Assembly (NCBI RefSeq): GCF_900103345.1
Contig: NZ_LT629702.1
Span: forward strand, 2,728,001 to 2,792,000
Direction: 5' to 3'
Source: Pseudomonas azotoformans
GTDB lineage: Bacteria; Pseudomonadota; Gammaproteobacteria; Pseudomonadales; Pseudomonadaceae
DNA length: 64,000 nucleotides
The translations under genes were made by a program, and so were the position numbers. Shown one piece after another: positions 48,840 through 53,939 of the stretch. The notes beneath the pieces were generated by a model. The model made no database searches. It was not told where the DNA came from and saw only the letters and a list, made by a program, of their open reading frames with translations. Each line of letters starts with the position of its first letter. Within the stretch, counting starts at the first letter, position 1.

Positions 48840-49211
48840 ATGTTGGTCAAAGCACTTCGAGTCGGCCTCGGCCAGATCATCATCGCGGGCGACTTCCTGA
48901 CCCGTCCCCGCAAAAAACAGCGCCCCGCCGAACAGCAGGCGCAGGTGAATGCAGCGGCCAAGGAACTGACCCTGTATCAGTTCCACGCCTGCCCGTTCTG
49001 CGTGAAGACCCGTCGCACCCTGCACCGCCTGAATGTGCCGGTGGCGTTGAAGGACGCGAAGAACAACGCGCAGGACCGCCAGACCCTGCTGGAGCAAGGC
49101 GGCAAGATCAAAGTGCCGTGCCTGCGCATTGAAGAAAATGGCCAGACCACCTGGATGTATGATTCCAAGGTGATCATCGACTACCTCGACAAGCGTTTCG
49201 CTGCGGTCTGA
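48840..49211 (+). CDS. glutaredoxin-like protein (GST N-terminal domain)
   Basis: A 123-residue protein. The first 40 residues hold a short hydrophobic stretch (VGLGQIIIAGDFL) and a basic linker; the rest is a glutaredoxin fold with the dithiol active site CPFC (FHACPFCVKTRRTLHRL) and the cis-Pro and glutathione motif IKVPCLRIEENG, then SKVIIDYLDKRF. It probably reduces mixed disulfides with glutathione. The hydrophobic start could be a membrane anchor. It follows folE after a terminator, so it has its own promoter. Confidence 0.88.
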   Translation: MLVKALRVGLGQIIIAGDFLTRPRKKQRPAEQQAQVNAAAKELTLYQFHACPFCVKTRRTLHRLNVPVALKDAKNNAQDRQTLLEQGGKIKVPCLRIEENGQTTWMYDSKVIIDYLDKRFAAV

Positions 49212-49229
49212 CAGACACTGGATAACCAA

Positions 49230-49318
49230 TGTGGGAGGGGGCTTGCCCCCGATGGCGGTGTATCAGTCAACTTATGTGTGACTGACACTCTGCTATCGGG
49301 GGCAAGTCCCCTCCCACA
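49230..49318. repeat. REPIN copy A, left border of the citrate-transporter cassette
   Basis: Two inverted TGTGGGAGGGGGCTTGCCCCC ends enclose a 47-bp middle. It ends 1 bp before the stop codon of the leftward AtuA-like small gene. Compared with the reverse complement of 53246-53333 it differs at three bases and one single-base indel over 89 bp. Confidence 0.92.
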
Positions 49319-49319
49319 T

Positions 49320-49640
49320 TTAGTTCAGTATTGGCAAATCAATGTCCAGCAGCGCGGAGCCCAGGCACTTGCCGTGGGCATCCAGCGCCAGCGAGCGGGT
49401 GACACCGCCGCGCAGAATGCCCGGCAGCACGAAGTTCAATGCCTGCACGTTCGGCAGTTCATAGCGCCGCACCGGTGCGGCGCCTGGCTCCAGTTGGTCG
49501 GCAAAGAACGCGGCCACGCGCTCAACCGTCAGCTGTGCGCAGAGCAATGGGTAATCCTCGGCACGATAGGCAATGATCGAAATGTTCGACGTGTCGCCCT
49601 TATCCCCGGTACGGGAATGGGCCAGTGTGTGCAGCTTCAT
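49320..49640 (-). CDS. AtuA C-terminal-like small subunit
   Basis: A 106-residue protein resembling the C-terminal ferredoxin-like domain of AtuA-family proteins, here as a separate gene. It opens with LHTLAHSRTGDKGDTSNISI, a pattern shared by this domain wherever it follows a DUF1446 protein, and contains GALDAHGKCLGSALLD-like strands. Its ATG overlaps the stop codon of the larger AtuA-like gene by 4 bp (ATGA), so the two should form one complex. In AtuA of the acyclic-terpene pathway the two parts are fused. No catalytic residues can be named. Confidence 0.82.
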   Translation of the reverse strand: MKLHTLAHSRTGDKGDTSNISIIAYRAEDYPLLCAQLTVERVAAFFADQLEPGAAPVRRYELPNVQALNFVLPGILRGGVTRSLALDAHGKCLGSALLDIDLPILN

Positions 49641-50962
49641 GCTTCGATCCTCGGTTTGACCGCATTACGCGGCAGCAGCAACGACGCCACCGCCACCACC
49701 TGCCGCACACTCTTGCTCGCGCCGCCGCCACCGGACGGGCCGTTGGTATAAAGGGTTTCCACTTCGTTGCCGACGCGCACCGCTTCGCTGCGCTCTTCAC
49801 AGCGAGCCGCCACGCGCAGGCGCACTTCCCAGGGCTCCACCGTGCTGCGCGGGCCGTGCAGCGAGTCCATGCCGATCAGTTCGGCACGCACGTCCTGCAT
49901 CTTTACCCCCATCAACTCAAGGCGCTTGAGCACGACATCCCTCGCCAGCTGTGCCCGTGCGACAGCACCGGGGCCACCGTAGGACATCTGCCCTTCACCG
50001 ATCCATCCGTCCAGATAGCCAACACTCACCTTCAACTGTGCGGGACGCGAGCGCCCCCCAGCACCTTGGGCACGAACACGATCAGCGCCCTCCTCGACAA
50101 AACCCACCTGAGAAAAGTCGGCGGTCACATCCGGCGTCAGGTACGCGGCCGGATCATGCACTTCGTAGATCAGTTGCTCAGTGCAGGTGGCACGGCTGAC
50201 CCGCCCACCGGAGCCGGTGACCTTGGTGATCACGGCTTCACCGTCGGCATCAATCTCGGCCAGCGGGAAACCCAGGCGCGCCAGGTCATCCACATCCTTG
50301 AAACCCGGATCGGCAAAATAGCCGCCGCTGACTTGCCCGGCACACTCGAGCAGATGCCCCACCAAGGTGCCGCGCCCCAAGCGCTGCCAATCATCCTCCG
50401 TCCAGCCGAACTCAAACATCTGCGGTGCCAGGAACAGCGAGGGGTCGGCCACGCGCCCGGTGATCACCACATCCGCGTCAGCGTGCAACGCCTGCAGAAT
50501 GCCGTCGACGCCCAGGTAGGCATTCGCAGAGATCAACCGTTCGCCCAAAGAGCCGACGGTCTGGCCGTTATCCAACAAAAAATCAGGCTGCAACAGCGTC
50601 AACACATCGTCGCCCACCACAGCGAGCACCTTGAGATCCAGGCCCATCTCACCCGCAATTCGCCGCACTTCGGCCGCCGCCGAGACTGGGTTGGCCGCGC
50701 CCATATTGGTGATCACCCGCAGGCGACGGCGCCCGGTCTGCACCCCCACAAACGGCAGCACCCGGCGCATGCGCTCACTCAGCAGCGGATCGTAACCGCC
50801 CTGCGGATCGCTGATACGCGCCTGTTGCGCCAAGGCGATGGTGCGTTCAGCCAGGCATTCAAATACCAGGTAATCCAGGTCGCCGTGTTCGGCCAACTCG
50901 ACCGCAGGTTCGATACGGTCACCGGAATAGCCGGCACCAGAACCGATGCGCAAGGTTTTCAT
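49637..50962 (-). CDS. AtuA-family (DUF1446) protein, large subunit
   Basis: A 441-residue cytoplasmic protein of the AtuA/DUF1446 family. It opens with LRIGSGAGYSGDRIEPAVEL and contains VITNMGAANPVSAAAEVRRIA and DGILQALHADADVVITGRVADPSL, typical of the family. AtuA takes part in acyclic terpene catabolism, but relatives lie in many clusters for carboxylic acid breakdown, and the reaction is not established. It is translated just after a CitMHS transporter (1-nt gap) and coupled to the small subunit gene. With a citrate-type transporter and LysR regulator, a di- or tricarboxylate substrate is a reasonable inference. Confidence 0.85.
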   Translation of the reverse strand: MKTLRIGSGAGYSGDRIEPAVELAEHGDLDYLVFECLAERTIALAQQARISDPQGGYDPLLSERMRRVLPFVGVQTGRRRLRVITNMGAANPVSAAAEVRRIAGEMGLDLKVLAVVGDDVLTLLQPDFLLDNGQTVGSLGERLISANAYLGVDGILQALHADADVVITGRVADPSLFLAPQMFEFGWTEDDWQRLGRGTLVGHLLECAGQVSGGYFADPGFKDVDDLARLGFPLAEIDADGEAVITKVTGSGGRVSRATCTEQLIYEVHDPAAYLTPDVTADFSQVGFVEEGADRVRAQGAGGRSRPAQLKVSVGYLDGWIGEGQMSYGGPGAVARAQLARDVVLKRLELMGVKMQDVRAELIGMDSLHGPRSTVEPWEVRLRVAARCEERSEAVRVGNEVETLYTNGPSGGGGASKSVRQVVAVASLLLPRNAVKPRIEA

Positions 50963-50963
50963 C

Positions 50964-52256
50964 TCAAATCACTCCCAGGAGCAACGCGGTCAGGGTCATC
51001 AACACCGACGCGGCAAACAGAAACGGAATGGTGAAGCGCTGGTGATCGGCCAGTTCGACCTTGCACAGGCCCACCAACAGGAAGGTCGCGGGCGTCAGCG
51101 GGCTGACCGGGAAACCGGTGGTGTGCACCCCCAGCAACGAGGCCTGGGCGACTTGCAGTGGATCGACACCCAGGGCCTTGCCGACCTCGGCGATCACCGG
51201 CATTACGCCGAAATAGTAGGAATCGGGGTCAAACAGCATGCTCAACGGCATGGAAATGAAGCCCACCACCGCCGGGATCAACTTGCCATGGCCCGCCGGA
51301 ATCTGCGCCACCGCCACTTCGGCGATGGCCTTGAGCATGCCGGTGCCTTGCATGATCCCGGTGAACACCCCGGCGGCCAGCAGGATACTGGCCATGGTCA
51401 GAGCGGTCTTGGCATGGGCATCGATGCGGGCACGCTGGGCATCCACGTTCGGGTAGTTAATGCACAACGCCACTACGGTGCCGAGCATGAACATCACCAC
51501 TGGGTCGACCCAGCCGGCAATCATCACCACCATCACCAGCACGGTGAGGATCAGGTTGACCCAGAATAGGCGCGGGCGACGCAGCTTGATGTCGTCGTCG
51601 CTGAGCACCCGTTGCGGCACCGCATCCACCGTGGAGCCGGCGCCGAGGCCCAGGCGTTTTTCTTCGCGACGGCCCAGCCACCAGGCACAGGCAAACACAA
51701 AGATCAGGCCGACGATCTGCACCGGGATCAGCGGCTGGAACAGGTCTGCCACCGGCACATGCAGGGCGGCGGACGAACGCAACACCGGCCCGGTCCACGG
51801 CAGGAAGTTGACCCCGGCGGCCATCGCACAGACGCAGGCGAGGATGCGTTTATCGATGCCCAGCCGCGTATACAGCGGCAACATGGCCGGCACCGTCACC
51901 AGGAAGGTCACCGCGCCGGAGCCGTCCAGGTGCACCAGCAGCGCAAGGGTCGCGGTGCCTACAACAATGCGTGTAGGACGCGTCCCTACCGTGCGCAGGA
52001 TGCGATCAATGATGGGGTCGAGCATGCCGGCATCGGTCATGATCCCGAAAAACAGAATCGCAAAGACGAACATGCCGACCACGGGGGCGACGTTCTTGAT
52101 CCCGGTGATGATGAAGGCACTGGTTTGCAGGCCGAACCCGCCGAGCAGTGCGGCGATGATCGGCAAGGCGATCAGGGCCACCAGCGGCGAGAGGCGTTTG
52201 CTCATGACGGCAGCGAGCAGGCACAGGATGGTGATGACACCCAGGGTAGCGAGCAT
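50964..52256 (-). CDS. CitMHS-family citrate/tricarboxylate:cation symporter
   Basis: A 430-residue membrane protein with about 12 helices of the CitMHS family (metal-citrate:H+ symporters such as CitM of Bacillus). Typical segments are LATLGVITILCLLAAVMSKR at the N-terminus, HLDGSGAVTFLVTVPAMLP in the first half, and LFDPDSYYFGVMPVIAEVG in the second. Members import citrate complexed with Mg or Ca, or related polycarboxylates. It is the first gene of the leftward three-gene operon, divergent from its probable LysR regulator, with 111 bp between them. Confidence 0.9.
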   Translation of the reverse strand: MLATLGVITILCLLAAVMSKRLSPLVALIALPIIAALLGGFGLQTSAFIITGIKNVAPVVGMFVFAILFFGIMTDAGMLDPIIDRILRTVGTRPTRIVVGTATLALLVHLDGSGAVTFLVTVPAMLPLYTRLGIDKRILACVCAMAAGVNFLPWTGPVLRSSAALHVPVADLFQPLIPVQIVGLIFVFACAWWLGRREEKRLGLGAGSTVDAVPQRVLSDDDIKLRRPRLFWVNLILTVLVMVVMIAGWVDPVVMFMLGTVVALCINYPNVDAQRARIDAHAKTALTMASILLAAGVFTGIMQGTGMLKAIAEVAVAQIPAGHGKLIPAVVGFISMPLSMLFDPDSYYFGVMPVIAEVGKALGVDPLQVAQASLLGVHTTGFPVSPLTPATFLLVGLCKVELADHQRFTIPFLFAASVLMTLTALLLGVI

Positions 52257-52367
52257 GGGTTACTCCAGAGCGGCCTTTTTGGCCGGTTATTGTTTTCCCT
52301 GGAGTATTGGAAGCAGGTTAGTCTTTGTAAATTGGAATATTCACCCGTTAGTGTTCGGAAAAACAAA

Positions 52368-53297
52368 ATGAAGAACAGTATCCAACACATTCAGGCATTT
52401 CTTACGGTGGCCCGTACTGGCAGTTTCACCAAGGCGGCCAATGAGCTGCATCTGTCGCCTTCTGCGCTGACGGTGCAGGTGCAACAACTGGAAGACTGGC
52501 TCGGCGTCGCCTTGCTCGACCGCAGCCCGCGCCACGTCAGCATCACCGTCGCCGGCCAGGAGGCCCGCGGGCCGATGGAAAAACTGCTGCTGGACCTGGA
52601 CAACATCGTCAGCGGGTCCCGCGACCTGGCGGCGTTGCGCCGAGGCGTGGTGACCATCGCCGCCCTGCCCTCGGTCTGTGCCGGCAGCCTGCCGCCGGTG
52701 CTGCGCCTGTTTCGCGAGCGTTTTGCCGGAATCGAAGTACGCCTGCATGACCTGGTCGCCCATCGCATTCATGCCCAGGTACGTTCCGGCGAGGTGGATT
52801 TCGGCGTAGGTGTGCGCGCTCGGCTCAGCCACGGGCTGGAATTCGTGCCGGTGCTGAACGATCGCCTGTGTGCGTTCGTGCCGGTGGATCACCCCCTCAC
52901 CCGCCATCGCCGACTGACCCTGGAGCAACTGGCGGACCAGCCGATCATCCTCACCGGCCGCGACAGCAGCGTGCGCGAGCAAGTGGATGCACTGTTCGAT
53001 CAGACACGCCTGACGATGAACGCGGGCATGGAAGCCAACTACATGTCGACGGTATTGGCGCTGGTGCGCCAGGGGTTGGGGATCAGTGTGCTGCCGGAAT
53101 CGGCGGCGGACAGCTTGGCGGGGTTGAAGCGCATGCCCATCGATCATCCCGGGGTGAACCGCGAGATCGGCTTGATCACTCGCAGCGGGATGGGCCTGAG
53201 CCCGGCGGCGCAGCGTTGTTTCGACTTGCTGAACGAACAACTGAATGTGGGAGGGGGCTTGCCCCCGATAGCAGAGTGTCAGTCACACATCAGTTGA
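52368..53297 (+). CDS. LysR-family regulator with repeat-derived C-terminus
   Basis: A 309-residue LysR-type regulator. The N-terminal winged HTH (residues 1-60: FLTVARTGSFTKAANELHLS) is followed by the two-lobed effector domain (about 90-293). It is divergent from the CitMHS/AtuA operon and should control it in response to its substrate. The last 16 codons (V onward in QLNVGGGLPPIAECQSHIS) are read through a REPIN that starts at 53246, so the natural stop codon has been lost or replaced. The tail lies beyond the effector domain and probably does no harm. The ATG at 52368 is preceded by a weak GGAAAAACAAA region. Confidence 0.9.
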   Translation: MKNSIQHIQAFLTVARTGSFTKAANELHLSPSALTVQVQQLEDWLGVALLDRSPRHVSITVAGQEARGPMEKLLLDLDNIVSGSRDLAALRRGVVTIAALPSVCAGSLPPVLRLFRERFAGIEVRLHDLVAHRIHAQVRSGEVDFGVGVRARLSHGLEFVPVLNDRLCAFVPVDHPLTRHRRLTLEQLADQPIILTGRDSSVREQVDALFDQTRLTMNAGMEANYMSTVLALVRQGLGISVLPESAADSLAGLKRMPIDHPGVNREIGLITRSGMGLSPAAQRCFDLLNEQLNVGGGLPPIAECQSHIS

Positions 53298-53333
53298 CTG
53301 ATACACCGCAATCGGGGGCAAGCCCCTCCCACA
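53246..53333. repeat. REPIN copy B, right border of the citrate-transporter cassette
   Basis: TGTGGGAGGGGGCTTGCCCCC on the left and GGGGGCAAGCCCCTCCCACA on the right with a 47-bp middle. It is the inverse-orientation twin of 49230-49318 and overlaps the 3' end of the LysR gene. The GST gene ends 4 bp further on. Confidence 0.92.
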
Positions 53334-53336
53334 GGT

Positions 53337-53939
53337 TTAACCGAGCATGGCCACATGCTTGGGATGGCTGGCAACCCTCTTCAACCAAGCCTGCACCGCC
53401 GGATAAGCGTCCAAGTCAAAACCACCCTCATTCGCCACATGGGTATAGGCATACAACGCCACATCCGCGATGGAGAACTGCTCGCCCACCAGGTACGGCG
53501 TCAGTTGCAGTTGGCGTTCCATGACCTTGAGCGCCTTGTAACCGCCTTTGTGCAGCTTCTTGTATTCCTCCAGGCGATCCTCGGGCAGGCCCAGGTAAAA
53601 CTGGATAAACCGCGCCACCGCAATGTACGGCTCATGGCTGTACTGCTCGAAGAACTGCCACTGCAACACCTGGGTACGCAGGCGCGGTTCGCTGGGCAGG
53701 AACTCGCTGCCATCGGCAAGGAAGTTGAGGATCGCGTTGGATTCCCACAGGCAGGTGCCGTCTTCCAGCTCCAGCACGGGGATCTTGCCGTTGGGGTTCT
53801 TCGCCAGGAACTCGGCGGTCTGGGTGTCACCCTTGAGGATGTCCACATCGATCCATTGGTAGGGAATGCCCAGTAGGCTGAGCATCAATTTGACCTTGTA
53901 GCAGTTGCCCGACTTGTAATCGCCATAAACCTTGTACAT
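53337..53939 (-). CDS. glutathione S-transferase family protein
   Basis: A 200-residue GST with a thioredoxin-fold N-terminal domain (residues 1-80; YGDYKSGNCYKVKLMLSLLG, cis-Pro in NGKIPVLELEDG and the glutathione-binding ESNAIL) and an all-helical C-terminal domain (about 90-200; FSIADVALYAYTHVANEGG is the capping motif). The Ser in SGNCYK is in the usual catalytic place. The substrate is unknown. It lies 10 bp downstream of the aminotransferase gene on the same strand and is probably co-transcribed. Its stop codon is 4 bp from a REPIN. Confidence 0.92.
   Translation of the reverse strand: MYKVYGDYKSGNCYKVKLMLSLLGIPYQWIDVDILKGDTQTAEFLAKNPNGKIPVLELEDGTCLWESNAILNFLADGSEFLPSEPRLRTQVLQWQFFEQYSHEPYIAVARFIQFYLGLPEDRLEEYKKLHKGGYKALKVMERQLQLTPYLVGEQFSIADVALYAYTHVANEGGFDLDAYPAVQAWLKRVASHPKHVAMLG

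Follow-up and report, generated by a model that had tools for sequence, protein, structure and literature searches.

We analysed a window of 64,000 nucleotides (positions 2728001-2792000 of the 6.73-Mb chromosome of a fluorescens-type Pseudomonas) in which four genes, encoding a LysR-type regulator, a CitMHS citrate-type proton symporter and a two-subunit AtuA/DUF1446 protein, are bracketed by two very similar REPINs, that is, pairs of opposite repetitive extragenic palindromic (REP) sequences that form one hairpin. The bracketing pattern is real and its main explanation is ordinary: with a probability of roughly 80%, the cassette is a vertically inherited catabolic module lying between two convergent junctions at which REPINs tend to settle. 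The bracketing itself would very probably be a by-product of gene orientation, since the module is bounded on either side by the 3' end of a gene that meets the 3' end of its neighbour. The operon runs on the minus strand and comprises the small AtuA subunit (AtuA_ferredoxin, PF23544; 106 aa; 49320..49640), the large AtuA/DUF1446 subunit (PF07287; 441 aa; 49637..50962) and CitMHS (TIGR00784, PF03600; 430 aa; 50964..52256), while the LysR gene (309 aa; 52368..53297, plus strand) is divergent from it. The LOW REPIN (89 bp; 49230..49318) and the HIGH REPIN (88 bp; 53246..53333), neither of them assigned a strand, are both of type G1; the labels G1 to G4 are our own and distinct from published groups.

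The initial annotation of this DNA had proposed that the REPINs might make the segment a mobile or invertible cassette. A search for the large AtuA subunit over 398 Pseudomonas genomes returned 49 with at least 86% identity, the window's own included, plus a split copy in G358. From these, 46 of the 48 other genomes and G358 were fetched, and named genomes were added later; merging duplicates gave 63 cassette-positive rows. The cassette adjoins the glutaredoxin-like gene in the same orientation as in the window in all 47 fetched loci, and its place, order and orientation are identical in 63/63 rows (window included), 62 of them with all four genes and P. trivialis without CitMHS. Distances between cassettes follow those between flanks, with a correlation of 0.91 over 62 rows that none of 2000 permutations equalled. 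By these sequence comparisons, the cassette is inherited in place within the fluorescens group. No sign of a relocated cassette was seen in the 12 empty genomes searched whole, a search that left out MYb60, P. antarctica, P. haemolytica and P. kitaguniensis; the best match to the large subunit reached only the level of the paralogue (E 1e-74 to 1e-79) in 11 of the 12, and G170 was not listed with a match.

These results largely refute the proposal that the REPINs at its ends mobilise the cassette in the manner of a composite transposon, which we now regard as very improbable. REPINs are mobile in principle, a RAYT-type gene (REP-associated tyrosine transposase) flanked by G1 motifs is present in this genome, and the four-gene unit occurs in other neighbourhoods elsewhere in the genus; however, the single fixed site, the congruent divergence, the variation of the end REP types among species and the failure to find the cassette elsewhere in the empty genomes searched whole all speak against it. 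The other neighbourhoods concern loci whose large subunit is 72-81% identical: in nine of nine fetched, out of 46 such genomes, the folE/glutaredoxin/GST (glutathione S-transferase) context was missing. Over longer times, judging from these loci, the unit has either shifted to other sites or been acquired repeatedly. No neighbour gene recurs beside it in more than three of the nine, so they give no hint of the substrate.

An invertible switch operated by recombination between the REPINs would have in its favour that the two are near-identical and oppositely oriented, yet it is extremely improbable, as 0/63 rows are inverted. Flipping would in any case merely swap the 3' ends that face the neighbours, with the divergent promoter region staying inside, and both direct neighbours are glutaredoxin/GST-like by Pfam rather than recombinases, although no wider recombinase search was made. 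The survey of relatives that the initial annotation had called for therefore gave a divided answer: empty sites exist, many with one REPIN, but the inverted orientation is absent among the 63. Its statement that a fixed place and orientation with unrelated or no REPINs would make the bracketing a coincidence describes the cassette-bearing relatives well, although it had been framed for all relatives and empty sites exist. A tempting false lead, the REPIN-bounded mobile cassette, is thereby removed.

Since LysR is transcribed away from the operon, each outer junction of the module is a convergent one: the small AtuA gene faces a glutaredoxin/GST-N-like gene (48840..49211, plus strand) across the LOW REPIN, and LysR faces a GST-family gene (53337..53939, minus strand) across the HIGH REPIN. 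REPs were scored with two detectors, a stricter one that calls REPIN, REP, half or none and a looser one that accepts any REP motif; junction counts come from the looser detector and exclude gaps of 700 bp or more. In the cassette-positive rows a REP motif is present at 57/62 glutaredoxin/AtuA-small and 48/61 LysR/GST junctions, compared with 2/62 for CitMHS/LysR, 1/63 for folE/glutaredoxin, 2/54 for Smr/folE, 0/60 for isoch/DUF, 0/60 for DUF/Smr and 0/51 for GST/PLP. The REP type at either site varies among species, or the REP is absent. With the stricter detector, 38/63 rows have a REP or REPIN on both sides; the type is shared in 19, and the remaining 19 have unlike types or types that escaped assignment. 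REPs have been described, in the part of that account available, as lying for the most part beyond the 3' ends of genes, where two neighbours converge or run in the same direction (PMC3733652). The REP-rich convergent junctions here agree with this placement bias, whereas at this locus co-directional junctions seldom carry REPs, and it is this 3'-end bias that makes both ends of a LysR-divergent operon resemble deliberate bracketing. A simple rule follows: where the regulator is divergent, an operon may be bounded by a convergent junction at either end, and such junctions collect REPINs.

The resemblance between the two REPINs is real. As the initial annotation had described, the LOW REPIN stops 1 bp short of the small AtuA gene (49318 against 49320), the HIGH REPIN covers the final 52 bp of the LysR gene, and LOW differs from reverse-complemented HIGH by three substitutions and one indel (alignment read by eye), or by 6 differing columns with the gap as placed by MAFFT. 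Each consists of two REPs in opposite orientation with arms that are 95% complementary, and as single-stranded DNA each folds into one hairpin far beyond its shuffles (z -12.4 and -10.2). The genome holds at least 264 further copies, a strict-pattern count over 6.73 Mb that is a floor, the pattern missing both window copies; placement relative to genes was examined at this locus, where HIGH overlaps a gene end. At the resulting density of one REPIN per 25 kb, about 39 neighbouring pairs no more than 4.1 kb apart are expected under random placement, and so a closely spaced pair is not unusual. Moreover, the inverted orientation of the pair carries little meaning, as either REPIN matches its reverse complement at about 84% of columns (76/90 and 76/91). 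The closest copy to LOW in the genome lies at 6,650,636, 3.87 Mb away, with 2 differing columns; HIGH is less close, but it is among the three best matches to LOW of the 40 sites scored out of 435 candidate repeat sites. LOW, HIGH and the copy at 6,650,636 thus form a small REPIN subfamily. An origin of the pair on the spot, whether by gene conversion or by copying, is disfavoured, LOW being nearer to the copy 3.87 Mb away.

Five Y1_Tnp matches were found in the genome, one flanked by G1-type motifs (L220) and two by G2-type motifs, and we infer from these flanks that the first is a RAYT-type gene cognate to the G1 REPINs. In the available account of P. fluorescens SBW25, REPINs consist of opposite REPs forming one long hairpin, exist in hundreds of copies, are mostly extragenic and accompany a RAYT-type gene with REPs of their own type on its flanks (Bertels & Rainey 2011, PMC3116915). 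So far as that account goes, the window's REPINs do not differ in kind: they share the opposite REPs in one hairpin, the high copy number and the RAYT-type gene with the same REP type. What sets them apart is that the pair belongs to a small subfamily and that one copy runs into the 3' end of a gene.

The history of the site was read from a tree of the 120 loci that had GST plus four or more flank genes, merged where identical into 87 rows, for which six of the 23 loci L168-L190 from the P. putida group were picked by hand; this group name, like that of the gessardii-like clade below, is our own assignment. The glutaredoxin-like gene faces GST directly, with no cassette, in 16 fluorescens-group rows and in all eight P. 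putida-group tree rows. With the P. putida group outside, the nine changes that the tree requires are most simply read as a single gain followed by eight losses; these losses would fall in the gessardii-like clade (eight rows), G170, G304, P. kitaguniensis, P. antarctica with G175, P. haemolytica, P. paralactis and MYb60. By this parsimony argument, the module quite probably entered the folE-glutaredoxin/GST junction once, in an ancestor of the fluorescens group, and was lost about eight times. The stricter detector finds a REPIN in 9 of the 16 empty fluorescens-group rows, a short REP in 3, half a REP in 2 and nothing in 2; a REP motif is present in 14/16. In the P. putida group, where the cassette was not seen at the site, the junction carries a REP in 17/25 distinct genomes (19/28 loci, with three genomes represented twice). 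A lone REPIN at an empty site was for this reason rejected as proof of excision.

The most informative empty junction is that of P. paralactis, the only one with a hybrid scar that crosses over inside a REPIN. Its opening resembles the flank to the left of LOW in P. lactis, and from there on it follows the HIGH REPIN shared by P. lactis and P. paracarnis, the switch point lying inside the first REPIN arm; the hybrid pattern holds with three of six references. The REPIN crossover coincides with an ancestry switch in the neighbouring DNA: to the left of the junction the sequence is 94-100% like G098, whereas across the initial 750 bp towards GST its likeness is 91-99% to P. paracarnis and 78-86% to G098. 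Two histories would account for this: a REPIN-anchored exchange with incoming DNA, or two successive events, one of them an exchange of GST and the other a deletion at the REPINs. The loss in P. paralactis is likely, if a shade less firmly so than the single entry, to have come about when a REPIN of LOW type crossed over with one of HIGH type, on one chromosome or with incoming DNA; the other losses may have happened likewise. It suggests that REPIN recombination can probably remove the cassette, and it provides one fairly well-resolved case of a REPIN marking an operon-removing crossover. The available text on SBW25 describes REP clusters as recombination hot spots, with large duplications at tandem REP clusters (PMC11708052). 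The P. paralactis scar is alike in that REPs serve as crossover points, and unlike in that a single operon was lost at single REPINs, between species.

Whether recombination of REPIN with REPIN is the general deletion route, one crossover removing the operon and leaving one REPIN, is more doubtful. Any two flanking REPINs offer short direct repeats in either orientation because each is nearly palindromic, and besides the P. paralactis hybrid the proposal can draw on the REPINs, short REPs and half REPs of the empty rows, on the lack of any operon remnant by eye in 11 empty junctions inspected, and on the REPs flanking both sides of 38 cassette-positive rows, 19 with a shared type. Nevertheless, operon-free P. 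putida-group junctions often carry REPs too, 8 of the 16 empty rows belong to one clade, 19 doubly flanked rows have differing or unassigned types, and the GST side of P. paralactis looks exchanged between lineages, so that incoming DNA may be responsible. Broader still, and rather unlikely, is the idea that a REPIN lying where gene ends converge serves as an all-purpose anchor of homology: crossover of a resident REPIN with a differently placed one, on incoming or the same DNA, would swap or remove the whole gene block between them. If it were true, accessory operons of the fluorescens group would come and go from REPIN to REPIN, with P. paralactis a caught example and the citramalate-type module as cargo.

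As to function, CitMHS would probably import a citramalate- or citrate-like hydroxy acid under LysR control, and the two-subunit AtuA enzyme would probably split it into central metabolites, citramalate giving pyruvate and an acetyl unit. No further enzyme would then be needed in the module, because such cleavage would yield central metabolites directly. The initial annotation could name no substrate; a lead now comes from the predicted fold of the large subunit, which matches CmlA, citramalate lyase subunit A (9evf/9erq), along almost all of the chain, while the reaction itself is a prediction. The two proteins also share the motifs GR..DP, LEC and LYE..DP in a partial alignment. On this structural modelling, there is about an even chance that the AtuA pair is a C-C lyase of a citramalate- or citrate-type hydroxy acid, and the narrower assignment to citramalate itself is tentative. 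Compared with CmlA as available in PDB entries 9erq and 9evf, the window's large subunit has the fold and the AtuA family name in common, at about 16% identity and with a predicted substrate, and its small partner has no solved relative. In enterobacteria, a DUF1446 gene has been described beside methylaspartate ammonia-lyase, next to a pathway that runs through citramalate (PMC4682846); that locus shares the large-subunit family by name, but the available part of the description mentions no CitMHS/LysR unit of the window's kind. No gene of the acyclic terpene utilisation (Atu) pathway, such as one for its carboxylase or acyl-CoA dehydrogenase, was recognised by eye among the open reading frames (ORFs) of 46.2-57.2 kb, a region in which no profile search for them was made, and a literature search for AtuA, DUF1446 and CitMHS in pairs found no paper. 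A common module that had no name gains a testable function. At another locus, L215, a fused AtuA-like gene has neighbours that resemble carboxylase and acyl-CoA dehydrogenase genes by eye.

Several observations weigh against parts of this overall reading. Parsimony alone cannot separate loss from regain, and the tree was a quick one, with 43 of 84 inner branches starred and 26 open; the congruence of cassette and flank sequences nonetheless favours loss. In 16 of 62 rows the nearest cassette falls outside the three nearest flanks, although the differences are small. REPs also occur away from the convergent junctions, at PLP/NCS2 (a long gap, 9/38) and GST/NCS2 (7/12) in cassette-positive rows and at DUF/Smr (4/22), Smr/folE (3/20) and PLP/NCS2 (3/12) in cassette-negative rows. 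For seven of the eight inferred losses, no crossover could be located within a REPIN: treating the junction as a LOW/HIGH chimera raises the score of G170, G175 and P. haemolytica, as it would for any empty junction, and the best score for MYb60 is obtained with LOW alone. Even P. paralactis gives no clear hybrid against G098, P. khavaziana and P. fluorescens EK007-RG4, whose repeats differ. With regard to the enzyme, the large subunit has a weak sequence match to citramalate lyase (16-17% identity; profile E 6.8e-5), and the small subunit has no solved relative detectable by sequence.

The four genes are confirmed as first named. The AtuA families score 509.8 bits for PF07287 (cut-off 22.8) and 127.1 for PF23544 (cut-off 27), the CitMHS profile TIGR00784 scores 415.8 bits against a cut-off of 259.7, and PF03600 and LysR profiles match as well. 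The unit is placed between the folE/glutaredoxin-like pair and the GST gene, and the closest named relative of the window in the flank-gene tree is P. extremorientalis LMG 19695. The C-terminal 16 codons of LysR (17 counting a straddling one) are encoded within the HIGH REPIN (53246-53297; L111), the REPIN-coded tail starting at NVGGG. The LysR of P. extremorientalis (303 aa) has the same C-terminal shift, with a collapsed REP there, and those of ten other relatives examined have 294-298 aa and different tails. P. trivialis (L133) keeps the AtuA pair and LysR without CitMHS, and the large AtuA gene of G358 (L082) is interrupted.

The neighbourhood also varies by insertion. In G218 (L109-L110) GST lies about 32 kb further on, behind a block between it and LysR whose genes resemble, by eye, acyl-adenylation, carrier-protein and ABC-export genes; three further genomes have comparable genes next to GST (L132, L136, the latter the same genome as L093, and L165). 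The LysR-GST gap holds a 3.1-kb pair in L135, by eye of squalene-hopene-cyclase type and phytoene-synthase-like, and a 1.7-kb gene in L141 whose start looks like isopentenyl-diphosphate isomerase. In L065 the gap between the glutaredoxin-like and AtuA genes opens with a broken REP head and holds a transposase-like ORF (IS110-like by eye). A zeta-toxin-like ATPase gene, also called by eye, lies between Smr and folE in L033, L057 and L058. In 12 cassette-positive rows no aminotransferase-like PLP gene was found to separate GST from NCS2, and seven of these shorter gaps carry a REP motif. Finally, L122, L115, L135, L138 and L155 are titled P. syringae or P. viridiflava but placed among fluorescens-subgroup species in the flank tree, and their names may be wrong.
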